The notes below the pieces were generated by a model. That model was not told the DNA's origin. It saw nothing but the letters and a program-made list of their open reading frames with translations, and did not search any database. DNA of 48,827 nucleotides from Phycisphaerales bacterium (GTDB taxonomy: Bacteria > Planctomycetota > Phycisphaerae > Phycisphaerales > UBA1924): positions 1 to 48,827 of the forward strand of contig JAGQOC010000001.1 of NCBI GenBank assembly GCA_020427745.1. The letters run 5' to 3'. Both the position numbers and the translations under genes were made by a program. Shown piece by piece: positions 1,134 through 43,674 of this stretch (position 1 is the first letter of the stretch; each line of letters opens with the position of its first letter).

Positions 1134-1186
1134 GGTTTCGCGCCGGATTTCTGGGCCGCGGGGGCGTGATCGCCCAATGATAGATT

Positions 1187-3025: not shown

Positions 3026-3380
3026 ATCCGCCGAGGGCGAGGCCTACTTCGTCTGTGATTTCTGTCTGAACACCTGGTCCGACGATCGCCCGATGGTCGA
3101 GGGGCACCGCGGCTCGCTCGTGTGCGCGCACTGCCTGTCGATCGCGTTCTCCGAGCTTGTGCATCTGCGATCCGGTTCTCCGGTCAAGCCCGGGGAGACC
3201 TGCGTGCTGTGCCTCGAGCCCGACCGCCCGGGGCTGCACTGGCGTTCGCCCGTGCGTGACGAGGCGATCGCGTGTGTCCGCTGCATCAAGCAGAGCGCGG
3301 GCGTGCTGCATAAAGACCCGGATTACGCATGGACCAAACCCGCGCCGATCGGCGAATCTGATGGATCGGATGACGACTGA
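3015..3380 (+). CDS. small double zinc-ribbon protein
   Basis: An unrecognised 121-residue protein with four CxxC pairs (CDFC, CAHC, CVLC, CVRC), enough for two zinc-ribbon or treble-clef sites. The first half resembles ClpX-type C4 zinc fingers in spacing. The C-terminus is acidic (GESDGSDDD). No DNA-binding or catalytic domain is visible, so an adaptor or protein-interaction role is inference only. It starts inside the end of the ABC exporter gene in another frame, which implies coupled translation, and ends 3 bases before a convergent chemotaxis-type gene. Confidence 0.75.
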   Translation: MHNESAEGEAYFVCDFCLNTWSDDRPMVEGHRGSLVCAHCLSIAFSELVHLRSGSPVKPGETCVLCLEPDRPGLHWRSPVRDEAIACVRCIKQSAGVLHKDPDYAWTKPAPIGESDGSDDD

Positions 3381-3383
3381 TCG

Positions 3384-4283: not shown

Positions 4284-4333
4284 GCCCCATCAATCGACGC
4301 GAACCCCGCCCGGGCTCAGCACGGATCGCTGAT

Positions 4334-5413: not shown

Positions 5414-7026
5414 GCCGGTGGAGTCTCGGGGAGTGGCTTGATCTCTTGTTGCGAGCCCGTCCGCGGCGCGAGTGTTCGTCGGATCATCGAGACAAGCTGC
5501 TCGTGCGTGATCGGCGCGTTGCCCATCGTCGACGCCTGGATCGCGGCACCGAGCGACCCGAGCACAAGCGATCGGCACGGGTCCTCCCCGGTGGTCAGCG
5601 CCGCGGTGGTGATCGCCAGCAGCGTGTCGCCGCACCCGAGCGTGTCGATGGGGTGCCGGGCGAACGACGGGATGTGGACGGAGTTGAGCCGGTTGGCCCA
5701 CGCGTCTTGCTCGCCGAGTTCCTCGATCGCCCGCCGCGAGAAGTGGATCACCCCTTCCTCGTTGAGCGTCACCGCGAGTGATCGCGCCCGCGTGGATTCG
5801 AGCGTCTTCCAAACCACCGCGGGGAGCGACGAGTCGTAATCGCCCGACGCGAAGCGGAGCTCGTGCTCGGACGGGCAGAGCATCTCCGCCCCGCGCATCG
5901 AGAGGAGCGAGGAACGGCGCCCGGAGACATCGCCCGACAGAATCGGCGTGCGGTCACGCGCTGCACTCGAGGCGCGAACCAACGAGCGGGGTGTGAACAT
6001 CCCGAGCCCGTAATCCGCGATGATGCACGCGTCCGCGCCGAGCGTGTGCTCCTCGATCAACGCGATGAGCGTCTCGCGGGCGCGGGTGTCCAGCGTGAGG
6101 TCCGACGCGTGATCGATCTTCATCTTCTTCTCGCGCCCGACGAGGTAGCGGTCCTTGGCCGGGATCCGGTCCCCGCTGTGCACCGCGTGGACGCGAACTC
6201 CCGCGGCATCCATCCGCTCGATGAATGCCTCGCCCTCACTTGAGCCGGGGAGTGTTGTGATCAGCACGGGCTCCACCCCGAGCGCCGCGAGGTGCAACGC
6301 GATCACGGCGCACCCGGCGTCGAAGCGTGAGCGCTCGAGCGGGCGAAGCGAGAGCATCGGCGACTCGCTGGAGACCTCGGGCCAGGTGCACTGGATATAG
6401 GTATCCAGGATCGTCTCCCCCACCACCACGATCCGCTTGCCCGCGATCCGCCCGAGCGTACCCTCCAAGGCCGACGGGCTCAGGTCGTAAGCCCGGTCGA
6501 GCATCCGCAGCTTTGCGCGGGTGGAGTCCGCCTCCTCGACGCGCTCGACGAGCGCCGACGACGAGAACACGACATCGGACGAAGAGAACACGACACGCCC
6601 GCCGTGGGTCTCGACAATCGCCCGTTCCTCGGCGAAACGCGGATCATTGTTCCCCTCGTACTCAGCGCCCTTGACATAGACATCGGGCTGCGTGATCGTC
6701 AGGAGCTCGCTGGCGGTCTGCTGGTCGTTGATGTACACCCAGTCCACAAACGACAACGCCGCGAGGTTGTCCGCGCGGAGGTCCTCGGTGAAGACCGGGC
6801 GTCCGGCACCCTTGTTGACAAACCGGTCGGCGGTGATGGAGACCAGCAGCCGATCGCCCTGGGCCGCCGCCGAGCGGAGATGGCGGATGTGTCCCGGATG
6901 GACAATATCGAAGCAGCCGTGGCACTGGACGACCCGCTGCCCGCCCCTGCGGGCGTCGGCGCGGCGTTCGACAAGCCGGTCGAGGGTAAGGATCTTCTCA
7001 GCGGGTGTGTGTGCGTGGTCATCCAT
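5404..7026 (-). CDS. HldE-like bifunctional enzyme, cytidylyltransferase then PfkB kinase
   Basis: Probably makes ADP-heptose precursors for envelope glycans. Residues 30-160 form a cytidylyltransferase-type domain with HGCFD and the HPGH (HxGH) site at 43-46. Residues 190-525 form a PfkB/ribokinase-type sugar kinase, ending in the GCGD anion-hole and catalytic Asp467. E. coli HldE has the kinase first and the transferase second, so the order is reversed here. The usual glycine-rich GGAxNVA segment of the kinase is poorly kept (DAGCAVIAL), so substrate choice may differ. No Shine-Dalgarno is seen; TATGAT lies 11 bases before the ATG, so the leader may be very short. Operon with the GT2 gene downstream. 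Confidence 0.85.
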   Translation of the reverse strand: MDDHAHTPAEKILTLDRLVERRADARRGGQRVVQCHGCFDIVHPGHIRHLRSAAAQGDRLLVSITADRFVNKGAGRPVFTEDLRADNLAALSFVDWVYINDQQTASELLTITQPDVYVKGAEYEGNNDPRFAEERAIVETHGGRVVFSSSDVVFSSSALVERVEEADSTRAKLRMLDRAYDLSPSALEGTLGRIAGKRIVVVGETILDTYIQCTWPEVSSESPMLSLRPLERSRFDAGCAVIALHLAALGVEPVLITTLPGSSEGEAFIERMDAAGVRVHAVHSGDRIPAKDRYLVGREKKMKIDHASDLTLDTRARETLIALIEEHTLGADACIIADYGLGMFTPRSLVRASSAARDRTPILSGDVSGRRSSLLSMRGAEMLCPSEHELRFASGDYDSSLPAVVWKTLESTRARSLAVTLNEEGVIHFSRRAIEELGEQDAWANRLNSVHIPSFARHPIDTLGCGDTLLAITTAALTTGEDPCRSLVLGSLGAAIQASTMGNAPITHEQLVSMIRRTLAPRTGSQQEIKPLPETPPAWT

Positions 7027-7114
7027 GACGAGCCGTCATCATACCGCGGGTGGGCGGATCGTGCCCTCGGGTCTATTCTTTCCTTCCGGGCGGCATAGAT
7101 GACCGCCCCACCAA

Positions 7115-7201
7115 GGTGCGGTGGCTGAGCGGTTGAAGGCGCTCGACTTGAAATCGAGTGACCCTGAAAGGGGTCCGTGGGTTCGAATCCCTCCCGCACC
7201 G
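7115..7201 (+). tRNA. tRNA-Ser (anticodon UGA)
   Basis: An 87-base class II tRNA. Acceptor arms GGTGCGG and CCGCACC pair perfectly, with discriminator G and no encoded CCA. The anticodon stem CTCGA/TCGAG encloses CTTGAAA, giving anticodon TGA. The long variable arm (ACCC/GGGT) is the serine hallmark, and the T-loop is TTCGAAT. The T-stem GTGGG/CCCTC has one T-T mismatch (7178 with 7192). It reads codons UCA and UCG and its relatives. Confidence 0.97.
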
Positions 7202-7226
7202 TTCTGGATCGCTCTGGTTCCCCGCC

Positions 7227-9263
7227 TCAGGGGCACCCGGCGCTGTAGGCATCGAGGAACGCAAAGACATCGAAGATGTCCAACACCCCGTCGCCCGTGA
7301 AATCCGCTGCCGGATCGAGAAGCCCGAACAAATCGAGGTAGGCAAACACATCGGCGATATCGAGAATGCCATCCCCGGTAATATCTACCGGGCATTGCGA
7401 GCAGTGGGTGCCCATCCGGACGATCTCGAGCCCGAAGTCGCCGGTGAGATACCCGATCGAGTCTCCGATCTGGATTCCTGAGTACTTATTGCGGTAGTCG
7501 CCATAGGTTGCACGCAATACCGGCTCCGTGGGATCCTCGACATCGAGGATGTCTATCCCACCGGTTCGCCGAGCGGCGAAGATCCGTGAATCTCTCAGAA
7601 AAAGCTCCAGATAAGAATACGCATCGTTGTTCGAATACTCCGCGACCATGCGCATCATTGCGGGATCCCGGATATCGACCACCACCATCTGCAGCGCACC
7701 ACGCCCGGGATCGCTCTCGGGATTCCGTATACCAATGTAGGCGTAGTTCCCGTCGGACTGCACCGCGGTCAGGTTGTGGGGGATCAAAAGCTCCCCCAGC
7801 TGCTGCGGGTTCTCCGGGTCCTCGATATCGATCGCCGTGAGCACAGCACTCCCCGTCGCGAACAGCAGGTTGTCCTTGAGAGAGAAGTTATCAAACCTCC
7901 GATCCCGCTGAAAATACCCTCTCTCAATCGGTGACTTTGGATCAGAGACATCGAGGATCCGAATCCCTCCGTTCTCACCAACAACGACCATGTCGCCTTC
8001 TGCCGTGATACTGAGTGGAGGATTCGGCGTCATGTACTCCCAGAGAAAGCTCGGGGCCGCTGGATCCGAGACATCCACCGAATGAATCAGCGCTGATACC
8101 GCATCAACGGTGTACACCGTATCCCCCGAGACTGAAACCCAATCAACGCGTTCCATCCCCGAGTAGCTCCCGACTTGTACCGGATTCTCTGGATCCTCGA
8201 CGCTCACAACCCGCAGACCCGCGTCCAAATCCGCGATGAATGCCGTGCTCCCGCGGACCACGAGATCCGCGGTCGAAGTCTCGAGCGGGAGCGAACTGAC
8301 GAAGGTATCCGAAGCCTGAAGCGGATCGATCCGCCACACCCCGGACCCGCTCGCAACAATGAGACCCGAACCGACCGAAACCAACTCGAGTGCGTAGCCG
8401 TCGCAAGCAATCGAGCCGGCGTAGACCGGGAGTGATGGATCGGCTACATCATACTCGAACACGCCGTAGCCCCCTGCGGGTGCATACAGCGTGTCGCCGA
8501 CAAGCCTCGGACGCTCGAGCCGAATCGGAGTTTGGGCAGAGCCCAGATGGTTCGGAGACGCGGGGTCTGCAAAGTCGACGATATTCAATCCGCTCTCATT
8601 AATGATGTAGGCGATCGTGTCATCAAAATCGAACAGAACCCTCCCCGAACCCGGCGCCGAGTATGTCCCGAGGAGCCGCAGAGGTGAGGGAATCGCCGCA
8701 TCTATCACGATGATGTCCGAACCGACGCCGTTGATATACACACGGGTGCCAACGACCTGCATCTCCTGAATATCAAACGACGGGTGGTAGAACCCGATCA
8801 GCACAGGAGAAGTCGGATCCTCGATATTGTAGATGGAAAGCCCGCGTGTCCCGAGGAGGTATGCGCGGGAGTCAACAATCTGGATCTCCTCAAGATGGCT
8901 CCCGATATCCAGCGCGTACTGAAAAGCCGGGTTTGAAGGATCGCTGATATCGACAACCTCAAAGCCGAGATTCACCGAGAGAAACGCGAGGTCTCCCAAC
9001 ACTTCGATATGCCGAACCCGTGAACCGGTCTGATAGCTCCCGACCAGCACCGGCGAATCGGGGTCGGATGCGTCGAATATCTCCATTCTGTTCCCGGCGG
9101 CAAAGACCAGGTCCCCCGACCGAGTAATCCGGTCGGCCCACGACTCCGAGATCTGCAATCCGGGATCCGTGCACAAGAGCCCGTTTCCATCGGCGTCGCT
9201 CCCCACTTGTGCGTGGACAGCGAAGGATACGAAACAAAGCAAAGACAACCCGCATCGGATCAT
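7227..9263 (-). CDS. secreted LVIVD-repeat beta-propeller protein with dockerin-like C-terminus
   Basis: A 678-residue exported protein. It opens with a short signal peptide (MIRCGLSLLCFVSFAVHA). The bulk is about ten LVIVD-type repeats, recognisable by recurring V(V/I)DISDPxxP blocks such as ILDVSDPKSP and IYNIEDPTSP, expected to fold as a beta-propeller. The last 55 residues, opened by a CSQC pair and closed by GCP, hold two DxTGDGxLDxxDVFA calcium-binding repeats, the dockerin-like anchor common in Phycisphaerae. ATG at 9263 is preferred over GTG at 9269 because GAGGG sits 5 bases upstream. A cell-surface or extracellular-matrix role is likely; no enzyme motif is seen. GC content is visibly lower than in the neighbours. 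Confidence 0.88.
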   Translation of the reverse strand: MIRCGLSLLCFVSFAVHAQVGSDADGNGLLCTDPGLQISESWADRITRSGDLVFAAGNRMEIFDASDPDSPVLVGSYQTGSRVRHIEVLGDLAFLSVNLGFEVVDISDPSNPAFQYALDIGSHLEEIQIVDSRAYLLGTRGLSIYNIEDPTSPVLIGFYHPSFDIQEMQVVGTRVYINGVGSDIIVIDAAIPSPLRLLGTYSAPGSGRVLFDFDDTIAYIINESGLNIVDFADPASPNHLGSAQTPIRLERPRLVGDTLYAPAGGYGVFEYDVADPSLPVYAGSIACDGYALELVSVGSGLIVASGSGVWRIDPLQASDTFVSSLPLETSTADLVVRGSTAFIADLDAGLRVVSVEDPENPVQVGSYSGMERVDWVSVSGDTVYTVDAVSALIHSVDVSDPAAPSFLWEYMTPNPPLSITAEGDMVVVGENGGIRILDVSDPKSPIERGYFQRDRRFDNFSLKDNLLFATGSAVLTAIDIEDPENPQQLGELLIPHNLTAVQSDGNYAYIGIRNPESDPGRGALQMVVVDIRDPAMMRMVAEYSNNDAYSYLELFLRDSRIFAARRTGGIDILDVEDPTEPVLRATYGDYRNKYSGIQIGDSIGYLTGDFGLEIVRMGTHCSQCPVDITGDGILDIADVFAYLDLFGLLDPAADFTGDGVLDIFDVFAFLDAYSAGCP

Positions 9264-9398
9264 GCACACCCTCTCTCTGCACCCAGCATTCCCGATTAAC
9301 AGGCTTCGAGTTCACACCGATAAACGCGCAGCGTACTGCATCGCACAAAGCCAGACAAGCCCGATCCGGTAGACGAATGGAAAATCGCGACCCTTCTT

Positions 9399-12185
9399 CT
9401 ATTCGCCGGCCGCCCCCGAAGCATCACCCTCAACATACGCCCGGATCGCCGGATCTTTGAAGGCCTTGTCGAGCTTGTCGAGGGTGTCCTCGATGTACTT
9501 GATCGCCGCGGCGTAGTAGAGCTCGGTGTGGAAGAAGTACTTCGCTACATCCGAGTCGATCACACTGACCTTCTCCTCGTCCATCTTGGGGACATGGAGG
9601 ATCTTGCCGATCGTGAAGTTTTTCAGCGAGAGCGATTCCTCGCCGCCGTTGAGCAGGACGATCTGCTTGAGCATGATCGCACGCTGGAGGCGTTCGATGT
9701 CCTTGGGCGAGTTGATCAGCACGCTGTACCGCTGGATGCCGTCGGCGCTGGGCTGGTTGAGATCCCAGAGCAGCTGCTGCCACGCGTCGCGGTCCGGGCA
9801 GTCGACGATGCTCAGGTCCGGGATCGGCTCGGAAGCGAGCCGCGATTGCTCCATCGAGTCGCGGTCATAATGGTAAGTAATCGCGAGGGCCTTGCCCGGG
9901 TTGTTCTCGAAGAAGCTGGAGGCGTCCTCGCCGCCGCCGAGCAGAGCGAGCGCGCGGTCGAGGAACTGCACATGGTACCCCTCGACATCTTTTTCCTCGA
10001 AGAAAATCACCCGCGCGGGATTCACACGCTGGTCGACCTCCGTGCGTTTGATGACCTCGTAGATCATGCGGTGCACGAGGATCTCCTCGCCCGGGATCTG
10101 GTCCTCGGCGAAGGCGCTGAATGGCGCCGTGTACGCGAGCCGGAAGTTGTGCTTGATCGCCTCGCGGGTCATCTCGCGGTAGAGCGTCAGTCGTTTGTTC
10201 TCCGCGAGGAAGCTCAGGTCGAACACATCCTCGGCGCGGATCCGGTACGCATCACGGAAGAGCTTGTTGCCCGTGTTGTCGAACAGGTCGTCGTCCTTGG
10301 GCAGAGCACGGTTGATGACATTGTAATCATCGAGCACATACGGCGTGAGCACGATGATCACCTCACGCTTGAGCGTCGTTGTCCGCTCGCTCCGGAACGC
10401 GGGCCCGATCAGCGGAAGATCACCAAACAGCGGGACCTTGTCCTGCACAACGCTAAGATCACGCGAGACCAGCCCACCGATAATGAACGGCGTCTTGTTC
10501 GCGATGCGTGCGTAAGTCTGCACCCGGCGTGTCGAGACCGTCGGCGCCGACGCGAGCAGATCCCCATCAGTCGAGCGGATCTCGAGATCCCGTCCCGGGA
10601 CCTGAGCAGAGACCACGGTATCGACGAGCATCGAGACCTGATCGCCCTCCTCCGTCATGCGCGGGCGGATGTTGAGCAGGATGCCGGTCGCGATGTACTT
10701 GAAGTTGAACGCGACCTTGTTGGAGTTGTTGCTGAATCCTTCCGAGCTCGTCGCGATCGGGATGTCCTCGCCCACACGGATCGTTGCCTGGCGGTTGTTC
10801 ATGGTGAGCACGGACGGGCGGGAGAGGATCTCCGCCTTGCCGTCCGAGACGAGCGCCCGGATCTTGACGCCCCAGTCCCGCGCGGCGTCGACCGAGTCCT
10901 GACTGTTCACGGTAACCGTGTCCGTGAGCCCGGTCGGATCGAGCGAACCGATGAGCAGATCGGTGGGCCCCTCCTTGAAGTTCCACTCAACGCCGAGCTC
11001 ATCGAGCCCGTCCTCGGAGATCTCGAGAACAAGCCCTTCGACAAAGACCAGCCTCGCCGGTCGATCGATGTACTCGTCGAGGATCGAACGCACGGTGGAG
11101 AACTGCTCGGGATGCGCGGGGTGGTAGAGCACCATGAGCTGCGAGGTCGGGGCGGCGTTCACCTCCGAGTTCAGGTTGCTCGCCTTAGCGGGTGTGCTCG
11201 TCTCGCCGAACGAGCCCCGCGCCGTGCTCTCGTCGCCCACGAGCCCGGTTTCCGCGGCGCTCGGGCCGGGCATGACGGTCACGAGCGGGAGTTGGTCATA
11301 GTTCATCGTCGCGGGGAGCGCATCGACCGAGCCGACCGTATTAATGCCGAGCCCCTTGAGGGTCTTGAGCGCGCTGTCCGTATTGGTATAGCTCAGCTGG
11401 ATAAGCTCGCGCGAGACATCCGCCTGCGTCAGCCCGGTCCGCATCTCCTCGACCTGCCCGAGCGCGGCATCAATATTCCCCTGCACCCCATCGAGATCCG
11501 GGTTCACGCTCGCATTCATGTCCTTGTCGACCACGATCCCCATCGCCCAGAGCTGGGGGAGCTGCGAGAGGTAGCGTGTCGATCCGTAGCGCAGCAGCGA
11601 CAGCGAGCCGTCGGCGTTCGATCGCGCATAACAATCGCCCGGCATCACCCCCTCGGGGACCGCCCCGAGCATCGCACGCTGGTCCGCGTCCGCGACCCGG
11701 TAGCCCATCTCCGCCTGTGTGCGGAGCCCGAGTGACGCGATCAGGTCCGCGACCTCCTGACGCGAGAGCTTCTTGAGGCTGATCAGCCGACCGGCATTGG
11801 GAGGCAGCGCCACCGGGGACTCCACCGCTGAGCCGATCACACGCATCTGCGATTCCGCATCGCGCTGACGCGCCTCACGCTGCTCATCGATCGACGCCAG
11901 CACGCCGGGCGCGATCCGCGGCTCGGCGAGCATCGCAACAACCGAATCCACCCGCTCGAGCGATTCGCCGCTCGGGCTATCCACCAGCACACCCCGTGTA
12001 GCACGCGGCTGCCTCATCTCGATCAACTGAGTACGCGACTCGTTCTGGACACACCCACCCAGCGCGGAGAGCCCGATCGCGCTGACCGAGAGCACCCGGA
12101 GCAGCACCGGCATCGAAACCACTCGGCGCGACGAACCGATCATGCACCAATCTGCGGGCGTCCGGTCGTCGCGGGTCTTGGGCAT
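9399..12185 (-). CDS. secretin-domain outer-membrane lipoprotein with long C-terminal extension
   Basis: A 928-residue protein related to type II/III secretion and type IV pilus secretins. The N-terminus has a lipoprotein-like signal ending in ALGGC (Cys45). The secretin core spans about residues 380-625: VEGLVLEISEDGLDELGVEW, then SRPSVLTMNNRQATIRVGED, and the hallmark VPLFGDLPLIG near 583 followed by EVIIVLTPYVL. After the core come about 300 residues unlike any secretin tail known to me. ATG at 12185 follows GAGGAG by about 7 bases; longer open frame upstream overlaps the ABC gene and is rejected. It follows that ABC exporter by 10 bases. No other secretion-system genes are nearby, so its partner machine is unknown. 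Confidence 0.85.
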   Translation of the reverse strand: MPKTRDDRTPADWCMIGSSRRVVSMPVLLRVLSVSAIGLSALGGCVQNESRTQLIEMRQPRATRGVLVDSPSGESLERVDSVVAMLAEPRIAPGVLASIDEQREARQRDAESQMRVIGSAVESPVALPPNAGRLISLKKLSRQEVADLIASLGLRTQAEMGYRVADADQRAMLGAVPEGVMPGDCYARSNADGSLSLLRYGSTRYLSQLPQLWAMGIVVDKDMNASVNPDLDGVQGNIDAALGQVEEMRTGLTQADVSRELIQLSYTNTDSALKTLKGLGINTVGSVDALPATMNYDQLPLVTVMPGPSAAETGLVGDESTARGSFGETSTPAKASNLNSEVNAAPTSQLMVLYHPAHPEQFSTVRSILDEYIDRPARLVFVEGLVLEISEDGLDELGVEWNFKEGPTDLLIGSLDPTGLTDTVTVNSQDSVDAARDWGVKIRALVSDGKAEILSRPSVLTMNNRQATIRVGEDIPIATSSEGFSNNSNKVAFNFKYIATGILLNIRPRMTEEGDQVSMLVDTVVSAQVPGRDLEIRSTDGDLLASAPTVSTRRVQTYARIANKTPFIIGGLVSRDLSVVQDKVPLFGDLPLIGPAFRSERTTTLKREVIIVLTPYVLDDYNVINRALPKDDDLFDNTGNKLFRDAYRIRAEDVFDLSFLAENKRLTLYREMTREAIKHNFRLAYTAPFSAFAEDQIPGEEILVHRMIYEVIKRTEVDQRVNPARVIFFEEKDVEGYHVQFLDRALALLGGGEDASSFFENNPGKALAITYHYDRDSMEQSRLASEPIPDLSIVDCPDRDAWQQLLWDLNQPSADGIQRYSVLINSPKDIERLQRAIMLKQIVLLNGGEESLSLKNFTIGKILHVPKMDEEKVSVIDSDVAKYFFHTELYYAAAIKYIEDTLDKLDKAFKDPAIRAYVEGDASGAAGE

Positions 12186-12195
12186 GAAATGCTCC

Positions 12196-14103
12196 TCAGT
12201 TCTCGTCGTGGCGACGGCTCTCTTGGGTGGTCTGCTCGTCCTGCTCGGGGCAAGGCTCGTCGCCCGGATCCAAGTGGACCGCGCGGGAGGAGGGACGCCC
12301 CGTGTACATTGTCGGCTCAAGGATCCGATCGTCTTTGGAGATCGCGCTCGACAAGAACGCCGCCGGCTCGTAGCGGGCGTACGCCTGAGGTGTCCCGTCG
12401 AACACCACCCGCCCGTCCCGGATGCACACCACCCGATCGACAAGGTCCAGCAGATGCGTCTCGTGGGTCACCATCAGCACGGTCCGATCGCGCATCCGCT
12501 GGAAGACGGAGTCCATGATCGCTCGTGACGATCCGCGATCGATCGATGCCGTCGCCTCATCGAGGATCAGGATCTCGGCGTTCTTGAGCAGCGCCCGCGC
12601 CAGCGTGATCCGCTGTTTTTCGCCGCGCGAGATCTCCGCCCCGAAGTCCGCCAGGCGCGTGTTGTATCCATCGGGGAGGCGTGCGATGACCTCGTCCGCA
12701 CCCGTCAGTCGGCAGGCCTCGCGGACCTCCTCGAGCGTCGCCCCTTCGCGGGCGTATCGGATGTTCTCATAGATCGACGCGTTAAAGAGGAACACCTCCT
12801 GGAACGCCAGCGCGATCGACGAACGAACCGCGGTCGCCGGGACCGTCGAGAGATCCACCCCACCGATCAGGACCGTGCCCTCCGTCGGGGCAACGAACTT
12901 GGGCAGCAGCTTGATCGTGGTGCTCTTGCCCGAGCCGCTCGGCCCGGTGATCGCCACCCGCTCGCCCGGGGTGATCTTGAGGCTGATGTTGTGCAGGACC
13001 TCGGCCGAGTCGTCGTAGCTGAACGACACGCCGCGGAGCTCGATCGCCCCGCCCTTGATAACCGCGTTCGAGCCGTGGATCTCGCGGTGCTCCTGGATGG
13101 GTTCCTCGAGCATCTCGAACACACGATTCACCGACGACACCGCCTTGGACGAGTGCCCGACGCCCGAGATGATCTCCAGCACCGACGGATAGAGCATCAT
13201 GACATACCCGAAGAACATCATGAAATCCCCGCCCAGCATGCGCCCCTTGATCACCTCGAACGCGCCGTAGGCGATGAGCATGATCGTCCCCAGACCGACG
13301 AGCAGATCCGCGGTAACCTTCTGCGCGAAGTGGAACTGCTGGGACCTGATCTGGCTCTTGCGGGTCTCGTCGATCGCGCGGTTGAAGGTCGCGCTCTCGC
13401 GGGCCTCGGCGCTGAAACCCTTGACGACCTCCATCCCGAGGAACTTCTCGACGAGCGAGCCGTACGCGATCGAGAGGTTCTCCTGCGCCTCGCTGTGGCT
13501 CTTGCGGATCGGCGCGCGGAAGAAGCGGTAGGTCACAAACTGCAGCGGCAAGATGATGATCGCCGCCAGCGCGAGCCGGATATTCATCATGCAGATCACG
13601 ACCACCAGGATCTGGAACTTGAGCAGGTTGAGCATCAACAACGGGAACTTGTCCTGGATGAAGCTCTGGATCTTGTAGGTGTCGTCCATCACCCGCGCGC
13701 CGACCTGCCCGGGCTGGTTGGCGCGGTAGAACCGCAGGCTTAGCTGCTGGAGATGATCGAACAGACGCTTGCGCAGCGAGAAGCTCACATCCTCGCTCGT
13801 CTTCAACGCGAGCATCCGGCTGTAGTAAAACAACGCGTTGCGCGCAACATAGCTCATAAACAGCCCGAGCAGGATCAGCCCGAGCATCCGACCACGCCCG
13901 CCCATCGACACCGCACGCGCGGATTCGGCGAACACATCATCGATCAGCAGCTTGATCGCGAACGGCGGGGCGAGGTCCGTCAGCACCAGCATCACCAGCA
14001 GCCCCAGCACCCCCAGCAAACGCCCAGAATATGGGCGCAACAATCCCACCACGCGCCCGTTGCTGCTCAGATCCTGCGATGACCCGCCATGTCCTGATGA
14101 CAT
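12196..14103 (-). CDS. ABC exporter with divergent signature motif
   Basis: A 635-residue half-transporter: transmembrane domain at about 25-330, nucleotide-binding domain after it. Walker A is GPSGSGKST near residue 386 and Walker B is ILILDEATA, with TH as the H-loop. The ABC signature is ISRGEKQR instead of LSGGQ, a divergent but still plausible form. The C-terminal 60 residues are hydrophilic and acidic. ATG at 14103 is preferred, with AGGA 7 bases upstream; the frame is open further upstream to 14406 but that part overlaps the ketosynthase gene. It ends 10 bases before the secretin gene, suggesting co-expression. Export of a lipid or peptide is inferred from the family. Confidence 0.88.
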   Translation of the reverse strand: MSSGHGGSSQDLSSNGRVVGLLRPYSGRLLGVLGLLVMLVLTDLAPPFAIKLLIDDVFAESARAVSMGGRGRMLGLILLGLFMSYVARNALFYYSRMLALKTSEDVSFSLRKRLFDHLQQLSLRFYRANQPGQVGARVMDDTYKIQSFIQDKFPLLMLNLLKFQILVVVICMMNIRLALAAIIILPLQFVTYRFFRAPIRKSHSEAQENLSIAYGSLVEKFLGMEVVKGFSAEARESATFNRAIDETRKSQIRSQQFHFAQKVTADLLVGLGTIMLIAYGAFEVIKGRMLGGDFMMFFGYVMMLYPSVLEIISGVGHSSKAVSSVNRVFEMLEEPIQEHREIHGSNAVIKGGAIELRGVSFSYDDSAEVLHNISLKITPGERVAITGPSGSGKSTTIKLLPKFVAPTEGTVLIGGVDLSTVPATAVRSSIALAFQEVFLFNASIYENIRYAREGATLEEVREACRLTGADEVIARLPDGYNTRLADFGAEISRGEKQRITLARALLKNAEILILDEATASIDRGSSRAIMDSVFQRMRDRTVLMVTHETHLLDLVDRVVCIRDGRVVFDGTPQAYARYEPAAFLSSAISKDDRILEPTMYTGRPSSRAVHLDPGDEPCPEQDEQTTQESRRHDEN

Positions 14104-28720: not shown

Positions 28721-31700
28721 ATGAAATCTGCATCCGTTCTCGCCGCCCTCGCGATCGCCGCCCTCCACGCCGGCGCCTCCGACCCGCTCGCCCCCCGTCC
28801 CAACGGCATGGCGCCCGCGCGACCGGGCACCTACCTCATCACCGACGCCACCATCCACACGGCACCCGGAAGCACCCTCGAGGACAGCGACCTGCTCATC
28901 GTTGACGGACGCATTGCCAAGATCGGAACGGATCTCCAAGCTCCAGGTGCGCAGCTCATCGACCTCGACGGGGTGCACCTCTACGCGGGCTTCATTGATC
29001 CATATATCGTCGTTGACGCTCCTGCTCCGAGTGCGTCATCCGCGGGCAGACACTGGAACGACATGGTCACCCCCCAACGCGACGCGCTCAGCGGCACCGG
29101 ACTCAGCGGTGACCAAGCCGAAAAACTCCGCGAACAGGGATTCACCAGCGCGATGATCGCCCCCGGGCACGGCGTCTTCCGCGGCTGGTCCGCGATCGTC
29201 TCCACCGCCGAACCCTTCGACGACCCCTCCATGGGCTCAACACCCGTCTACAAAGCGCGCGCCGCCCAGATCCACGGCTTCGAAACCTCCGACTGGTCCT
29301 CCGGCGCATACCCGACGAGCCACATGGGCGTCATGGCGCTGCTCCGCCAAACCTTTATCGATGCGGAACACCGCGCCGCATCCGAGCACGCCGACGCGTC
29401 ATGCCTCGATTCTGTCAGCGGCAGCAACCTCAATATCTACGACACCCGCCACGAGCTCGAAGCGCTCCTCGCGGGCAAGGTCGCCGGCGAGTTCCACCAC
29501 GAGCATGTCGCGATCGTCGGCAACGGCAACGAGCACCGCCGACTCGACGCGCTCAAGGATCTTGGCTTCCCGATCATCACCCCACTGAACTTCCCCAAGG
29601 CCCCCGATGTGTTCTCGATCGGTGCCGCCGACAGCGTGGACCTCGCAGAACTCCAATCCTGGGAACGCGCCCCCGCCAACGCCCGCTGGCTCGACAACTC
29701 GGGCCTCACCGTCGCCCTGACCACAAGCAAGCTCCCCAAGGGACAAAAATTCTGGGACAACCTGCACACCGCGATCGAGAAAGGGCTCGCCCCCGACCGC
29801 GCCCTCGCGATGCTCACAACAAACCCCGCCGAGATCCTCGGACTCAACGACCAGGGCACCCTCGCCGTCGGCCACCCCGCGAACATCGTCCTCGCCTCGG
29901 GCAATCTCTTCGACCCGGAAGCCGACGCCAAGATCCTCGACCTCTTCGTCGATGGACGCAAGCACCACATCAGCGACGCCGAGTCCGACCATTTCGATGG
30001 GCACTGGACCATCCGGATCGTCGGTGCGCCATTCACCATGTGGATGGACATCGACGGCAACACGATCACCGCGACCGAGGGAGAGGGCGATGACGCCGCC
30101 GTCGGCAAAGCGCGCAAGGTCACCATGGACCACAACACGCTGTCCTTCCTCATCGATGACGACGACGATGGCACGGGCACCTATGTCATGACCGGCACGC
30201 TCCTTCCCGACGGGATGATCCGCGGCACCGGGATGGCCGCGGACCAATCCACCTTTGAATGGACCGCGACCAAGGACGCCGACACCGTCACCACCAAGGA
30301 TTTCGCGGGCACCTGGGATGCGACACTCAACAACCGCTTCGAGCTCAGCTTCAAGGTCAAGGGCGACAAGGTGACGGTGGTTGAGCACACCGACGCCGAT
30401 GACATCACGCAGGACGCCACCGAGGTCCGCGTCGAGGACGACCAGCTCAAGTTCAACTTCGAGCACAAGCCCTTCGGCATGGAGGGCGTCTTCCGCATCG
30501 CGCTCGCCCCACCCACCGACGACGCGCTCACCGGCGACGGTGAGATGCCGGGCGGCAAAGCATTCCCACTCTCCGCCGTCCGCGCGAGCAAGGACAAGCC
30601 CGACGCCGACAAGCTCCCCGATCTCCCCGAAGCACCGTTCGGGTCGTATGCCTACACCGAAGAACCCAAGAGCGGCATCACCCTTATCACCGGCGCCACA
30701 ATCTGGACCCAGACCGACGACGGCATCCTCGAAGACGGATGGATCCTCGTCCGCGACGGCAAGATCATGTCCGTCGGCACCGGGGGTTACCCACGCATCG
30801 CCGTCGACCAGCAGTTCGACGCGACCGGCATGCACATCACCCCCGGGCTCATCGATGCCCACTCGCACACCGGGCTCTTCCGCTTCGGCGTCAACGAGTC
30901 CGGACAAGCCGTCACCAGCGAGGTCCGCATCAGTGATTCCCTCGACCCCGCCCACCCCGGTTTCTACCGCGAGCTCGCCGGCGGCTTGACCACCGCCAAC
31001 CTCCTCCACGGCTCCGCCAATCCCATCGGCGGGCAGTCGCAGACCATCAAACTCCGCTGGAACGCCGACAAACCCGAGGACATGTTCTTCGAGGGCGCCA
31101 AGCCCGGCATCAAGTTCGCGCTCGGCGAGAATGTCAAGCAATCCAACTGGGGTGACGACAACACCACCCGCTACCCCCAGACCCGCATGGGTGTCGAGAC
31201 CATCATGCGCGACCGATTCACCAAGGCGCGTGAGTACGCAACAAATCGTGTACGAAGTGTGAAACTCACTCAACAACTCGATCAACTGGACACACGCCTA
31301 CAAAACCTAAAAAGCGAATTAGTGAAAGAAAATGAACGGCAGAGCCCGTACTACCAAATACTCGATCAAAGGCAGCAACTTCAACGGACAATCAATGAGT
31401 TATCTGCCCGCGACCTCGAGCTCGAAGCCCTCGCAGAGATCCTCGCCGGCGATCGCCTCGTGCACTGCCACTCCTACCGCCAGGACGAGATCCTGATGCT
31501 CTGCCGACTCGCCGAGGAGTTCGGTTTCAAAATCGGCACCTTCCAGCACGGGCTCGAGACCTACAAGGTCGCCGAGATCGTCAAGGAGCACGCGATCGGC
31601 GCCTCCATCTTCTCCGACTGGTGGGCCTACAAGGTCGAGGTCCAGGACGCGATCCCCTACGCCGGCCCGATCAACCACGCCGTCGGGCTGCTCACCAGCT

Positions 31701-32221
31701 ACAACTCCGACTCCGACGACCTCGCCCGCCGAATGAATGTCGAAGCGGGCAAGGCATTCAAATACGCCAAGATGTCCGGCATCGAGATGACCGAACAGGA
31801 GGCCCTCGCCTTCGTCACCACCAACCCCGCGATCCAGCTCGGTATCGATGCCCGCGTCGGCACGCTCGAACCGGGCAAGGACGCCGACATCGCGGTCTGG
31901 ACCGGCAACCCGCTCTCCTCGCTCTCACGCTGCGAGATGACCTTCGTCGACGGCAAGCTCCTGTTCTCCCGCGAGCTCGACGCGCAGATGCGCACCGCCA
32001 TCGCCACCGAACGCCAACGCCTCATCCAGAAGATCCTCACCGAGGGCAAGCCGGAACCCAAGCCCGAGAAGGAAAGCAAGGACGACGACACCAAAGCCCC
32101 CGAGCTCGTCGACCCCAACTACGCCGACCATTACAGCAACACCCACCAGGGCGACTGCGGCTGCAACACCCTCCACACCCACTGGACCGACGCATACACC
32201 AGCACCGAAAGCGGAAACTGA
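28721..32221 (+). CDS. two-part secreted amidohydrolase, inactive-like half plus active-like half
   Basis: A 1166-residue exported protein. Residues 1-19 are a signal peptide. Residues 30-420 are amidohydrolase-like but lack the HxH metal motif (YAGFIDPYIVVD where GLIDAHxH is expected). Residues 425-640 are beta-rich repeats resembling a small barrel. Residues 655-1110 form a second amidohydrolase with the metal pair GLIDAHSH (His714, His716), LVHCHSYRQDE, and a C-terminal EPGKDADIAVW. A 55-residue coiled-coil insert of low GC occurs near 840-895. The tail GDCGCNTLHTHW could bind metal. AAGGAG lies 9 bases before the ATG. The next gene starts 3 bases after the stop, so both are one operon. 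Substrate unknown; a peptide or imide hydrolase is a guess. Confidence 0.88.
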   Translation: MKSASVLAALAIAALHAGASDPLAPRPNGMAPARPGTYLITDATIHTAPGSTLEDSDLLIVDGRIAKIGTDLQAPGAQLIDLDGVHLYAGFIDPYIVVDAPAPSASSAGRHWNDMVTPQRDALSGTGLSGDQAEKLREQGFTSAMIAPGHGVFRGWSAIVSTAEPFDDPSMGSTPVYKARAAQIHGFETSDWSSGAYPTSHMGVMALLRQTFIDAEHRAASEHADASCLDSVSGSNLNIYDTRHELEALLAGKVAGEFHHEHVAIVGNGNEHRRLDALKDLGFPIITPLNFPKAPDVFSIGAADSVDLAELQSWERAPANARWLDNSGLTVALTTSKLPKGQKFWDNLHTAIEKGLAPDRALAMLTTNPAEILGLNDQGTLAVGHPANIVLASGNLFDPEADAKILDLFVDGRKHHISDAESDHFDGHWTIRIVGAPFTMWMDIDGNTITATEGEGDDAAVGKARKVTMDHNTLSFLIDDDDDGTGTYVMTGTLLPDGMIRGTGMAADQSTFEWTATKDADTVTTKDFAGTWDATLNNRFELSFKVKGDKVTVVEHTDADDITQDATEVRVEDDQLKFNFEHKPFGMEGVFRIALAPPTDDALTGDGEMPGGKAFPLSAVRASKDKPDADKLPDLPEAPFGSYAYTEEPKSGITLITGATIWTQTDDGILEDGWILVRDGKIMSVGTGGYPRIAVDQQFDATGMHITPGLIDAHSHTGLFRFGVNESGQAVTSEVRISDSLDPAHPGFYRELAGGLTTANLLHGSANPIGGQSQTIKLRWNADKPEDMFFEGAKPGIKFALGENVKQSNWGDDNTTRYPQTRMGVETIMRDRFTKAREYATNRVRSVKLTQQLDQLDTRLQNLKSELVKENERQSPYYQILDQRQQLQRTINELSARDLELEALAEILAGDRLVHCHSYRQDEILMLCRLAEEFGFKIGTFQHGLETYKVAEIVKEHAIGASIFSDWWAYKVEVQDAIPYAGPINHAVGLLTSYNSDSDDLARRMNVEAGKAFKYAKMSGIEMTEQEALAFVTTNPAIQLGIDARVGTLEPGKDADIAVWTGNPLSSLSRCEMTFVDGKLLFSRELDAQMRTAIATERQRLIQKILTEGKPEPKPEKESKDDDTKAPELVDPNYADHYSNTHQGDCGCNTLHTHWTDAYTSTESGN
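31238..31400 (+). other. low-GC coiled-coil insert inside the amidohydrolase gene
   Basis: A 160-base stretch in frame within the gene. By hand count, 31261-31380 has 52 G or C of 120 (43%), well below the flanking sequence, and uses A-ending codons the flanks avoid. It encodes a heptad-like Leu/Gln/Glu helix (QQLDQLDTRLQNLKSELVK). It looks like a recent replacement or insertion between AREYA and RDLELEALAEIL. Confidence 0.7.
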
Positions 32222-32224
32222 ACC

Positions 32225-33541
32225 ATGAACCTCTTGACCACCACCATCGCCGCCGCCATGCTCGCAACCGCGTGCGCCTCCGCCCAGGACCTCGCACCCG
32301 CCGCACCCGCGCAGGACCACCCGATCATCCTCATCGGCGCAACCGTACATACCGTCTCCGGCGACAACATCGAGAACGGCGCCGTCGCTTTCACCAACGG
32401 ACGCATCGAGTATGTCGGCCAACGGATGCACATCGACCTGAGCGACCCCGCCCCCAACACGCAGATCATCGACCTCACCGGGAAACACATCTACCCCGGG
32501 CTCATCGACTCGGTGACGCGATTGGGTCTCGAAGAGATCTCCGCCGTCCGCGCCATGAACGACTACAACGAGGTCGGCGACATGACCCCCGAGGTCCGCG
32601 CCTATGTCTCTGTCAACCCCGACTCCACCGTCATCCCCACCGCCCAGACCAACGGCGTCCTCACCGTCGGCGTGTTCCCCTCCGGGGGCACCATCCCCGG
32701 ACGCGCCTCCGTCCTCCGCACCAACGGATGGACCACCGAGGACATGGCCATCTCCCGTGACGCCGGCGTCATCATCAACTGGCCCCGCATGCGCGCCCCA
32801 GCCAACAGCAACGACACATCCAGGTTCAACAGCAACCGCGACAAACGCCTCGCCAAGCTCGACACCCTTATCGATCAAACAATCTCCTACGCCGCGGCTC
32901 ACAATGCGACCGATCTCCAGCTCGACGCGATGACCACCATCCTCCCCGGTGAATCACAGAACCCCGTCTACATCAACGCCGACGACTACGACCAGATCAC
33001 CACCGCCGTCAACTGGGCAATCTCCCGCGGACTCCGCCCAGTCATCGTCGGCGGACGCGATGCCCACCTCTGCACCGACCTGCTCGCATCCACAAACACC
33101 CCCGTCATCGTCGGCGGCACCTACAACTTCCCCAAACGCAACGACGCCGCCTACGACGAACCCTACACCCTCCCCGCCAAGCTCGAGGCCGCCGGCGTGA
33201 AGTGGTCGCTCACCATGTCCTCGCGCCACGCCCACGAGCGCAACCTCCCCGACGCCGCCGCGATCGCCGTCGCCCACGGGCTCGATCACGACGCCGCCCT
33301 CCGCGCGATCACACTCACCGCCGCCGAGAACCTCGGCGTCGCCGACCAACTCGGGTCCATCGAACAGGACAAACTCGCAACCCTCATCATCACCGATGCC
33401 GACATCCTCGATGTCACCACCATCGTCGAGGGCGCCTATATCGACGGCCGCAAGATCGATCTCCGCAACAAGCAGACCGATCTCCGAGACAAGTACCTCG
33501 AAAAGTACCGGCAGCTCGACATGATTGAATCAGAGGACTGA
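32225..33541 (+). CDS. secreted amidohydrolase-like protein without HxH
   Basis: A 438-residue exported protein with signal peptide MNLLTTTIAAAMLATACASA. It has the composite beta-sandwich of amidohydrolases at both ends (LIGATVHTVSGDNIENG and QDKLATLIITDADIL) around a barrel domain. The first metal-binding motif is absent: HIYPGLIDSVTRLGL replaces GLIDAHTH, and later His residues (GGRDAHLC, SSRHAHERN) are not in clear ligand positions. It is therefore probably non-catalytic or differently metallated, and may act with the preceding protein as a pair. It ends 4 bases before the convergent capsid cassette. Confidence 0.85.
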   Translation: MNLLTTTIAAAMLATACASAQDLAPAAPAQDHPIILIGATVHTVSGDNIENGAVAFTNGRIEYVGQRMHIDLSDPAPNTQIIDLTGKHIYPGLIDSVTRLGLEEISAVRAMNDYNEVGDMTPEVRAYVSVNPDSTVIPTAQTNGVLTVGVFPSGGTIPGRASVLRTNGWTTEDMAISRDAGVIINWPRMRAPANSNDTSRFNSNRDKRLAKLDTLIDQTISYAAAHNATDLQLDAMTTILPGESQNPVYINADDYDQITTAVNWAISRGLRPVIVGGRDAHLCTDLLASTNTPVIVGGTYNFPKRNDAAYDEPYTLPAKLEAAGVKWSLTMSSRHAHERNLPDAAAIAVAHGLDHDAALRAITLTAAENLGVADQLGSIEQDKLATLIITDADILDVTTIVEGAYIDGRKIDLRNKQTDLRDKYLEKYRQLDMIESED

Positions 33542-35899: not shown

Positions 35900-37075
35900 T
35901 CAGACACCCAAGCCGGTAATCATCCCGTGCGCGTTCTCGTTCTTGAACTCCAGCGTGTACTCCCCGATCACCTGCCCGTTGACAGAGTCCCCCGTCGCCG
36001 CCAGCGGCTTGTAATGGAAACTCCGACCCTGCATCGGCATCACGCTGATCCGCGACGAATCCAGAAGCAAAATCGTGTCCGTAGGCACCCACCGGCTCAT
36101 CACCACCCGGCACACACCGAAGTCACTCTCGTACACGCTGATCATGTCCGAATAGGTCTGATCCTCCGGCAAATACGCGCGGCTCCCCGTTGCGAACCCG
36201 TTGATCTTCCGCTTCTGCGCACCGCCAACAACAATCGTGTCCACGCCCCCGCTGCTCTGATCCCAGATCTGCTTGAGCGCCGCATTAATCACCGCCTCGT
36301 TCAGCTCGTCGCTCCCCGTTCCATCCCCGTCCGGGATCCCCCCAACACCGGGCTCAAAGATGTTCGTCTCGATCGAGTGCACGATCCCGTTCATCGATCG
36401 ACGCACCGTGCTCGAACCCTGCTGCGTGCTCGTCGGTGCAACACCATTAATCACGCAGTTCTCCAGATCACGAAGCAGTTCACGCATCCGCTCCTGCTTC
36501 TGGTAATCCACCTCGTCCGCGATCCCGTACGCCCTGCTCGCCTGCATCGAGCCCGAGACATCAATCCCCGCCGTAAAAATCTGCGTGTAGTTCGACTTGC
36601 GGACCCGGCTCGTAAACCGCGCCTCCGGAGCCGCGTCCCCCTCGAGCGCCGCGTTCCCAAGAATCGTCAGCACCATGTTGTCCGCGAGCGTCGCGCCAAC
36701 AGTCCCCCCGTACGACCGCGTCACCCCAAGCGTGTTGCTGCCCGTGTTCACACTCCCCACCAGCATCACCTCGCTCGTGTTCCCGGGACGCACAAGATCC
36801 CCCACCCGGAACACGCTCGCGTCGTCCACAATCAGCCCCACCGCCGTCTCCGGGTCCGGCGTAAAACTCGTCTGATTCAGCGTCCCCATATTCCCGAGCA
36901 GCGTGTCCTCGATCCACTCATGCACCGTCGACAACGCCGAACGCTTCGCATCCCCCAGGTGATCAAGCAACGGCACCTCGAACGGGCTCACAATCCCGAT
37001 GATGTCGCTCACATCCTCCACCAGCTCGGGCAAGCCCGCCCCCGCCCCGTATGTCGCCTTCCCAGTAAAACTCAT
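35900..37075 (-). CDS. major capsid protein (SU10/DUF5309 type)
   Basis: A 391-residue protein matching the SU10-type, HK97-fold major capsid family (DUF5309). Evidence by eye: LVEDVSDIIGIVSPFEVPLLDHLG at the N-terminus (the family's domain start, roughly residues 16-41), VHEWIEDTL, GVTRSYGGTVGA, and a closing AHGMITGLGV. No N-terminal delta domain is attached, which fits a separate scaffold gene upstream. GGAGG lies 5 bases before the ATG. The coding sequence is intact, with no stop or frameshift, so it is probably under selection or recently acquired. Confidence 0.8.
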   Translation of the reverse strand: MSFTGKATYGAGAGLPELVEDVSDIIGIVSPFEVPLLDHLGDAKRSALSTVHEWIEDTLLGNMGTLNQTSFTPDPETAVGLIVDDASVFRVGDLVRPGNTSEVMLVGSVNTGSNTLGVTRSYGGTVGATLADNMVLTILGNAALEGDAAPEARFTSRVRKSNYTQIFTAGIDVSGSMQASRAYGIADEVDYQKQERMRELLRDLENCVINGVAPTSTQQGSSTVRRSMNGIVHSIETNIFEPGVGGIPDGDGTGSDELNEAVINAALKQIWDQSSGGVDTIVVGGAQKRKINGFATGSRAYLPEDQTYSDMISVYESDFGVCRVVMSRWVPTDTILLLDSSRISVMPMQGRSFHYKPLAATGDSVNGQVIGEYTLEFKNENAHGMITGLGV

Positions 37076-37134: not shown

Positions 37135-37644
37135 CTAACAGCACGCCCGACGAGCCTGCAGATACCGCAACAACGCCCCTCGATCACCGCTCGCCCGCGC
37201 TTCCCCGGCCATCGTGTCCAAATCCTCCGACCGACCACGCTGCACCATCGCACTCATCAGCGATCCACCCGTTCTCTTTGCGCCAGACCCGCCCGCAAAG
37301 AGGAACGGCTTCTTGCTCCTCAGTTCCCGCACAGCGATCGCCACATCCGGCTCATCCATCCCCGCGATCGCCACCTCCGTCAGCAGACACGCCGTCTCCA
37401 GATCCACCGCGTTCGCCCGCGACACTTCCTGCTCGATCTGCGATCGACGCTCTACCGCCGCGACCGCCTCGTTCGCCGCCGCAAGCTCCTCGCGGAGCGA
37501 GGCAACCGTCCGCTTCAGTTCCGCGATCTCCGCTTGCGCCTCCTGCTCCTCTTCCAGCAGCTCCGGGCTCACCGGCGGACGCGTCTCTACAGCCTCTCCG
37601 CCCCCGCCACCACCGAACTGCTGGCCGCCATCAACCTTCGACAT
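37135..37644 (-). CDS. coiled-coil protein, scaffold-like
   Basis: A 169-residue protein between portal and capsid, the usual site of the scaffolding gene. After a Gly-rich N-terminus (residues 8-16) comes a long coiled coil (about 30-75, EEEQEAQAEIAELKRTVAS and on), then a charged, basic C-terminus ending in RRACC. Scaffolds commonly have this shape: a helical middle and a basic C-terminal capsid-binding end. No protease signature is seen. GGAGGT lies 5 bases before the ATG. Confidence 0.65.
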   Translation of the reverse strand: MSKVDGGQQFGGGGGGEAVETRPPVSPELLEEEQEAQAEIAELKRTVASLREELAAANEAVAAVERRSQIEQEVSRANAVDLETACLLTEVAIAGMDEPDVAIAVRELRSKKPFLFAGGSGAKRTGGSLMSAMVQRGRSEDLDTMAGEARASGDRGALLRYLQARRACC

Positions 37645-37661
37645 CCCACACCTCCATTCGC

Positions 37662-39155
37662 TTACACAACCCCAGGATCAACACGCCCGTACCCGAGCTC
37701 CGCGATCACCGTCTCCGCGGGAACACCAAGCTCGATCTTCCCCTTCGCCGCGGCAACCGTCTCCCGCTCGTCCGCTACCGCGAACTCGGGCCACACCACA
37801 CGCACACCGCGCTCACTCGGATCCGTCGAGAGCACCCCCGCCGCATCCAACGCCGTCAGGATCATCCCGCACACCTTCTCCATACCACGCCCGTACCCGA
37901 CGCGTTTGCGCCGCGTCTTCGCGATCAATCCCATCAGCGTCACCCGCAGCGCATTGCCACTCGAAAGATTCCCGAGCTTCGCACGCACCACGCCCCCCGC
38001 AAGCGGCGGCACCCCGCTCACCTTGTCCATCGCCTCACGGATCTCCGTGATATGGCTCTCCTCACTCGGGCTGTGCATGTCCCCGCCGAACCGCTCGATC
38101 GAAGCGTCCGGGTTCTCCGTGCTCCACACCACGCCAGGCCCAACCCCCGCGCCATTGAACCCCTCGATCCCCTTCGCCAGATACATCTGAAAACTCTGCA
38201 GCGTCACCCGGTTCGCCCGATCACTTAGCCGCGTATTCAGCTCGTCCTGAAGCGCCACCAGTGGCTCCACCTCGCCTATCCCGCCATACACAAACGGCTG
38301 ACGCATATTCTGGATGTGCACTACCGGCACCTCGCCCCCAAGCAGCGTGCTCGCTGACCGCGCAACCTCTTCCCCGTTCTCAAACCGACGCCACCCGCTC
38401 CTCCCGAAGACCTCCGTCACCGTCCCCTGCCTGCGTTCAACGCGGGACCCGCCCGAACCGCCGCGTCCACCAAAGAGCCGACCAACACGCCCGCCGCGCC
38501 CCCGCGATCCCTCGACCTCGTTGAGCTCCCGCTCAAAGTGCACCGCGTACCCATCAAGGACGCGATAATCGTCCGCGGAAACCAACGCAACCCCCCGCCG
38601 AGCATCGATCGGCTCGATCGTGATCCACTCCGACGCGCCCGCGAGTGTCGCGCCCCCGAGCCCCTCCGCATCGATGCGAACAAGCAGATCCACATGCCCG
38701 AACACATGCCCCAGGATCGCCAGGTCCTGCAGGAGCGCGATTCCCCCGCTCGCCTCCCACACCGCTTCGAGTACCGATTCAACCGCCAACTTCACACCCG
38801 CATCCCCCGCCGTGCTCTCAAAGCGGATCGGATCACCGAACATGAAATCAACCATCGTCTGCACACGCCAACCGATATCGTTCTCGATCACCACCTCGCG
38901 CCGCCCACGCTGATCGCCGTACACTCCGCTCCCGTTGCCCCTAATCCGTTCCGGCAACCCGATCTCCTGCGCCGCGCGATACCACCCCTTACCGCCCGCC
39001 GTGCCCGACACGCCGACCAACTCGAGCGGGTTTCGAAAATACGCCCACATCTTCTCATGCCGGGGAATCTCCCGGCTCGCATGCTCGCCGATCGCGAGCT
39101 GCACAAGCGCCCAATCCGGGTCAGCGTCAAACCTCATCTCGAGTTGGTCGGCCAT
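37662..39155 (-). CDS. phage portal protein (SPP1 gp6-like)
   Basis: A 497-residue protein of the SPP1-type portal family, which forms the dodecameric DNA gate of the capsid. Supporting blocks are MWAYFRNPLELVG, NDIGWRVQTMVDFMFGDP, LGHVFGHVDLLVRID, GIGEVEPLVALQDELNTRLS and VSGVPPLAGGVVRAKLGNLS, which follow the wing, stem and crown order of such portals. An Arg/Gly-rich loop sits near residues 220-245. The start at 39155 is supported by GGAGGAGGG directly upstream; the longer frame to 39233 is rejected. No terminase gene precedes it; a terminator and housekeeping genes lie upstream instead. Confidence 0.82.
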   Translation of the reverse strand: MADQLEMRFDADPDWALVQLAIGEHASREIPRHEKMWAYFRNPLELVGVSGTAGGKGWYRAAQEIGLPERIRGNGSGVYGDQRGRREVVIENDIGWRVQTMVDFMFGDPIRFESTAGDAGVKLAVESVLEAVWEASGGIALLQDLAILGHVFGHVDLLVRIDAEGLGGATLAGASEWITIEPIDARRGVALVSADDYRVLDGYAVHFERELNEVEGSRGRGGRVGRLFGGRGGSGGSRVERRQGTVTEVFGRSGWRRFENGEEVARSASTLLGGEVPVVHIQNMRQPFVYGGIGEVEPLVALQDELNTRLSDRANRVTLQSFQMYLAKGIEGFNGAGVGPGVVWSTENPDASIERFGGDMHSPSEESHITEIREAMDKVSGVPPLAGGVVRAKLGNLSSGNALRVTLMGLIAKTRRKRVGYGRGMEKVCGMILTALDAAGVLSTDPSERGVRVVWPEFAVADERETVAAAKGKIELGVPAETVIAELGYGRVDPGVV

Positions 39156-39355
39156 CGGTCCCTCCTCCGCTCCCTGCGTGTCACCATCGCACGCCACACC
39201 CATTCCCCCGCCGACCATCAACCGCGCGCACAAACACCATCACCCGATCCCACGCCCCGATCGCAAACCCGTGCAAACACACACATCAAACTTTTTCAGA
39301 ATCTCAGCCAAGCCCACACGCCCGCGGCCTCACCGTGCGCACAAACCAAGCGCAT

Positions 39356-43230: not shown

Positions 43231-43674
43231 ATGAGATACTGCACAAAGTGTCATTACGATTTTCAAGGGCTTGGGCCGTCTACAAGATGCCCCGAATGCA
43301 ATAGTAAAGAACGAATCAACTACCCGCGCAGCACACCCAAAAGATCTCTTGTCAAAGCGGCGGTTTTGTTCTGCATCAGCATACTAATCTTTGTTGTTTT
43401 TGTGTATGGTGCCGGCCCTCTCGCAATCGCGGGTACTCCTGCCATGGCGCCACCAACTCGCTTCCCTGATTCTGCAAATACCCTGCTATTTGTGTTGCTG
43501 GTAACCGCCGTGACATTGTGCGGCTTCTTTTTATTCTCAATGGCAACCTACACAATTTCCATCCCAAAATGGATTCGCATGATCATCGATATTGGCCTGC
43601 TTGGGGTTTCATTCTGGATCGGAATGCATTTGATTGGTTTCATCTGGCTGTTTGTGTCATTCGTACTTCCCTAG
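43231..43674 (+). CDS. zinc-ribbon membrane protein
   Basis: A 147-residue protein with an N-terminal zinc ribbon (CTKC and CPEC, residues 4-24) and about four membrane spans after it (AAVLFCISILIFVVFVYGAG, LLFVLLVTAVTLCGFFLFS, MIIDIGLLGVSFWIG, MHLIGFIWLFVSFVLP). The MRYCTKCHYDFQGL start is a style seen often in planctomycetes. Function is unknown. GC is much lower than in the neighbours (hand counts of 45-48% in two 60-base lines), so it may be acquired or fast evolving. Its start codon touches the Kbl-like stop. Confidence 0.75.
   Translation: MRYCTKCHYDFQGLGPSTRCPECNSKERINYPRSTPKRSLVKAAVLFCISILIFVVFVYGAGPLAIAGTPAMAPPTRFPDSANTLLFVLLVTAVTLCGFFLFSMATYTISIPKWIRMIIDIGLLGVSFWIGMHLIGFIWLFVSFVLP

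Follow-up and report, generated by a model that had tools for sequence, protein, structure and literature searches.

A hypervariable low-GC arm in an exported amidohydrolase of Phycisphaerales and the possible replacement of its alleles

Hypervariable surface loops of mosaic bacterial genes, such as those encoding porins and pilins, are exchanged by recombination. The palindromic elements of Rickettsia are short in-frame inserts within protein genes. Intervening-sequence elements of the S23 type, with an open reading frame for a four-helix bundle, are represented by the 23S IVS of Coxiella (PMC4990558). For the amidohydrolase loop described here, we found no account in the literature. The best match to the catalytic domain, in sequence (E 1.8e-50) and in fold, is the amidohydrolase of Thermotoga maritima with PDB entry 3ooq, which has a single domain, whereas the protein studied here has two. 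At the site of the loop, between the helix RDYFTKVKNY and the segment DLKMEV, 3ooq has only about 15 residues.

The amidohydrolase, its low-GC arm and neighbouring genes

The window is one entire contig of 48,827 nucleotides from a MAG of a Phycisphaerales bacterium (2.56 Mb in 263 contigs). The features of the locus are listed in Table 1. The encoded protein belongs to the amidohydrolase superfamily (PF01979, 87.3 bits against a curated cut-off of 25), and a linking region joins its two domains. The second domain has all of the motifs DAHSH, VHCH, QHG and SDSDD, that is, the HxH after strand 1 and the later His and Asp ligands. The first domain has no HxH metal motif and may be a non-catalytic partner that the relatives examined retain.

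Table 1. Coordinates of the features at the amidohydrolase locus, numbered from the first position of the window.
Feature	Position	Strand	Basis and remarks
Exported two-domain amidohydrolase ORF, 1166 aa, signal-peptide-like N-terminus	28721..32221	+	sequence; Pfam Amidohydro_1 and Amidohydro_3
First amidohydrolase-like domain, residues 36-423, IDPYI in place of the HxH metal motif	28826..29989	+	sequence
Amidohydrolase domain 2, of catalytic type and with DAHSH (residues 641-1098); best relative of solved structure, PDB 3ooq	30641..32014	+	sequence and structure match
Conserved left flank with AREY at its end, predicted helix alpha-4	31184..31237	+	homologue alignment and structure prediction
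Hypervariable arm, own allele, 56 residues (ATNRVR...NELS), GC3 0.38, predicted helical hairpin, orphan in searches	31238..31405	+	
Direct repeat, copy 1 (CAACAACTCGATCAA)	31271..31285	+	84 nt upstream of the second copy
Direct repeat, copy 2 (CAAATACTCGATCAA)	31355..31369	+	
Conserved right flank (ARDLELEALAEILA), GC3 normal	31406..31447	+	homologue alignment and composition
Downstream amidohydrolase paralogue, 438 aa, without length-variable island among congeners	32225..33541	+	comparison of syntenic genes

An earlier note made from the DNA letters had described a low-GC segment, in frame between GC-rich flanks, that encodes a charged helix, and both parts of this description are borne out. 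The anomalous codons extend over residues 840-895 (31238 to about 31405), between AREY and ARDLE, with a GC content of about 43%; positions 31240-31359 have 41.7% GC against 61-66% on either side. The 56-residue peptide is rich in Q, K, E and L and is predicted to be helical. The GC3 of the segment (0.38, or 0.40 over 58 codons) is the minimum of the contig among 12,867 windows of 53 codons in predicted ORFs (mean 0.83, sd 0.09). The comparison of codon use that the note had proposed gives 23 codons ending in G or C, while 48.7 are expected for these amino acids (z = -9.4), and the mean codon adaptation of the segment is below that of all 9,124 background windows. In a survey of 20 stretches of the same genome (293 kb, 230 ORFs), the segment shows the largest flanked GC3 drop (0.42), followed by a drop of 0.37 in a coupling-protein-like gene of mobile type. 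The compositional edges are sharp and coincide with those of the loop. The 15-nt direct repeat inside the arm is a weak sign of an internal duplication (codon-shuffle p of about 0.02-0.03).

AlphaFold models of the barrel were poor (pLDDT 56 and pTM 0.44 for the domain of this genome, pLDDT 47 for the domain with the WLD allele described below), and only the local helix prediction was therefore used. With local pLDDT values mostly of 70-90, the arm is modelled as extending the helix ending in TKAREY, turning, and coming back as a second helix that precedes LELEALAEIL and the strand LVHCH. It is thus predicted to be a helical hairpin that lengthens helix alpha-4, placed between this helix and strand beta-5. 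In a TIM barrel, links from a helix to the following strand are found at the side of the barrel remote from the active site. From this topology, the arm would project from that side, which makes an outside contact likelier than a catalytic role. The arm therefore probably serves oligomerisation, binding of a partner, or escape from phages or predators rather than catalysis.

Some other genes further along the window were noted as well. A 147-aa ORF without a Pfam match lies 3' of an aminotransferase gene (43231-43674, plus strand; GC 47%, GC3 0.52). A gene for a major capsid protein of the SU10 type (PF17236, E 5.8e-87; 35900-37075, minus strand) is located next to a phosphoglucomutase gene and the amidohydrolase operon, together with a gene that has a weak scaffold match (37135-37644, minus strand) and one for an SPP1-type portal protein (37662-39233, minus strand; E 4.3e-16). 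The capsid gene is present in 144 of 163 genomes of the family (108 of the 112 good ones), mostly as a single copy and with 54-86% identity, and by its distribution the cluster looks like a vertically kept, domesticated one. Many genera have the capsid gene in two pieces, with the break at about residues 57-64. In two loci (L179 of genome G160, 219-12387; L180 of G116, 254-12419), its parts are separated by about 11 kb of DNA that encodes an AAA protein, a large serine recombinase and its own Mu-like capsid protein (PF25209), and in L179 also a DNA methylase. In these two cases a phage-like element has apparently integrated into the capsid gene of the host.

Alleles of the loop in related genomes

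The amidohydrolase gene is present in 149 of the 163 genomes of the family, and its locus is syntenic among the congeners. Loops were taken from the loci retrieved, class-level relatives included, and their length was counted from directly after RDRF to directly before LEALAEIL. Among the homologues extracted, the loop varies from 16 to 187 residues, in frame every time and between conserved flanks; the site is hypervariable in both length and sequence, and no short loop of constant size. Over seven syntenic genes of 15 congeners, it is the sole length-variable island of at least 12 residues, apart from start-site differences and one unreadable stretch.

A 21-residue loop type with the pattern xRGxKTxxGxxDxE, called KT, occurs in seven congeneric genomes and also in the genera g40 and g42. 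Because it is common to these three groups, the KT type is probably ancestral and the long arm derived. The 16 congeneric genomes contain about eight loop types that are mutually unalignable, and eight of these genomes, the studied one included, have long loops of 54-78 residues. The earlier note had expected a short loop in homologues, which is only half right: half of the congeners have long loops, and loops elsewhere in the family reach 187 residues, mostly of unrelated sequence. The long loops of the studied genome and of G142, G130, G136 and G138 are each unalignable to the others, and G135, G127 and G139 have in common a long type of about 76 residues, called WLD. All eight long alleles of the genus are low in GC3 given their amino acids (z from -3.8 to -10.8), whereas most long alleles of other genera are not. 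The loop of G141 has 17 residues. The 16-17 residue loops of G141 and G096 (loci L035 and L069) have GC3 values of 0.12 and 0.00, calculated from very few codons.

The history of the alleles was compared with a tree of the flanks and a tree of four neighbouring genes, which agree on the main groups of the genus. The KT and WLD types are each found in both subclades of the neighbour-gene tree, in conflict with the species tree; G134 and G126, with the KT type, are nested next to the WLD-bearing G135 and G127. Between G135 and the pair G134 and G126, the loop is wholly different, while the surrounding flanks are about 0.8-0.97 identical. Likewise, the studied genome and its sister species G142 have a loop identity of 0.33 against mostly 0.77-0.90 in the flanks, and the loop of G142 is unrelated. 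The claim that the low-GC segment is recent holds only in this sense, that the sister species has a different allele.

Two genomes with the WLD type, G135 and G127, differ in 28 of 39 amino-acid-identical codons of the loop, compared with 223 of 843 elsewhere in the gene (p = 1.1e-8). Synonymous divergence in the loop is 2.7 times that of the rest of the gene, and none of 804 windows is as high. The loop proteins of this pair are 69% identical (dN 0.20), and synonymous sites are saturated. In the WLD comparisons with G139, the synonymous excess is weak or non-significant (p = 0.03 and 0.32), and no excess was found in the KT loops. By these substitution patterns, the WLD loop of G135 and G127 looks older than the surrounding gene and under purifying selection.

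The codons of the studied loop fit those of the AT-rich congener G141 (GC3 0.46) far better than those of the host (-0.03 vs -0.62 per codon). For the loops of several congeners, the codon usage of their own host fits nearly as well as any other.

Origin of the arm alleles

We consider it fairly likely that the segment is the form that a hypervariable surface arm takes in this species, and that such arms are exchanged for those of other lineages, which are often richer in AT. The exchange would probably proceed by recombination in the conserved AREY and RDLE flanks, and the AT-rich codons of an arm would mark the donor lineage. Replacement by flank recombination is suggested by the incongruence of the trees together with the synonymous excess. 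Several observations count against it. No donor or relative of the studied allele was found in 163 genomes of the family, 294 genomes of the phylum, phage records or viral contigs, the synonymous excess is strong for one pair only and absent from the KT loops, and the codon fit of several congeners' loops to their own hosts is nearly as good as to any other. The greatest difficulty lies in the sharp compositional edges: recombination should often bring in the flank of the donor too, which leaves room for drift in place or illegitimate capture. The earlier reading as a stretch with foreign composition that stays in frame is supported, and the arm is derived relative to the probably ancestral 21-residue KT form; a one-off splice does not fit, the segment being one allele of a repeatedly replaced arm.

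A rather unlikely alternative is fast evolution in place, in which a tolerant helical arm drifts by substitutions and in-frame indels while relaxed codon selection lowers GC3 to the mutational optimum. It would account for the sharp boundaries, for the GC3 poverty of every long allele of the genus whatever its sequence, and for the narrow range of lengths of these alleles. Variable columns elsewhere are also slightly GC3-poorer than conserved ones (0.79 vs 0.89 in the amidohydrolase gene), but neither they nor the variable C-terminal tail are GC3-poor to speak of. Intergenic GC is 0.61-0.66, so the segment lies below even the non-coding DNA here, and relaxation alone should not produce a GC3 of 0.38. 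Drift in place also agrees poorly with the conservation of one retained type as a protein and with the recurrence of the KT and WLD types in both subclades. A chimeric contig produced by assembly or binning is a possibility that the fragmentation of the MAG invites, and it is very improbable: the frame is open over both junctions, the flanks match orthologues at one syntenic locus, and congeners assembled independently hold long, in-frame, GC3-poor alleles at the same site.

Non-homologous capture, with a mobile element or random fragment landing in the tolerant loop, being kept in frame and decaying to the present remnant, would agree with the orphan sequence of the studied loop and its sharp edges, and the loop of G105 shows directly that such a site can take up a whole mobile element in frame. 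That loop has 187 residues, and its +1 frame encodes a four-helix-bundle gene of the S23 type (TIGR02436, E 1.8e-30; locus L052, about 1613-2115), one of eight TIGR02436 matches in the G105 genome. The gene is flanked by inverted arrays of the octamer CGACGGAG, and the amidohydrolase reads through it out of its frame. The studied arm has neither such an ORF nor inverted repeats, its genome has no TIGR02436 match, and the arm is single copy and looks like a coherent amphipathic helix in the frame of the gene; capture as its origin is quite doubtful.

Several specific elements were considered and rejected. An S23/IVS four-helix-bundle element is set aside by the same lack of TIGR02436 matches. 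The arm resembles the Rickettsia elements as a short in-frame insert, but it has no palindrome and no second copy elsewhere in its genome, and a palindromic mobile insert was rejected on these grounds. An intein would need at least about 130 residues compared with the 56 present, and the insert has no Pfam domain above cut-off. The variable region of a diversity-generating retroelement is contradicted by the differing allele lengths and the missing template copy. In a six-frame comparison, derivation from other loop alleles by frame shift or in antisense gave only chance-level matches for the studied loop.

Comparison with mosaic surface loops

From the sequence comparisons, the best reading is that the arm acts like a recombining mosaic surface loop, although the searches for a donor of the studied allele found none. 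In a conserved enzyme of uncultured Phycisphaerales, the arm differs from one close species to the next, and the remainder of the gene is stable. Should the exchange be adaptive, the arm would mark an outside contact of the enzyme and give a direct handle on the selecting agent. We speculate, with little confidence, that the loop could be a dedicated cassette-exchange site in an exported metabolic enzyme of a planctomycete lineage, with a phage, a predator or a competitor binding the arm as the selecting agent. As a caution, a low-GC in-frame segment spotted by eye may represent one allele of a hypervariable site instead of an isolated foreign insertion.

Compared with mosaics of the porin and pilin type, the carrier here is an exported amidohydrolase of metabolic type and not a known surface antigen, and most of its alleles cannot be aligned and differ greatly in length. 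As in those genes, a conserved scaffold carries loop alleles that depart from the species tree, with a local shift in composition and, strongly in one pair of genomes, excess synonymous divergence.
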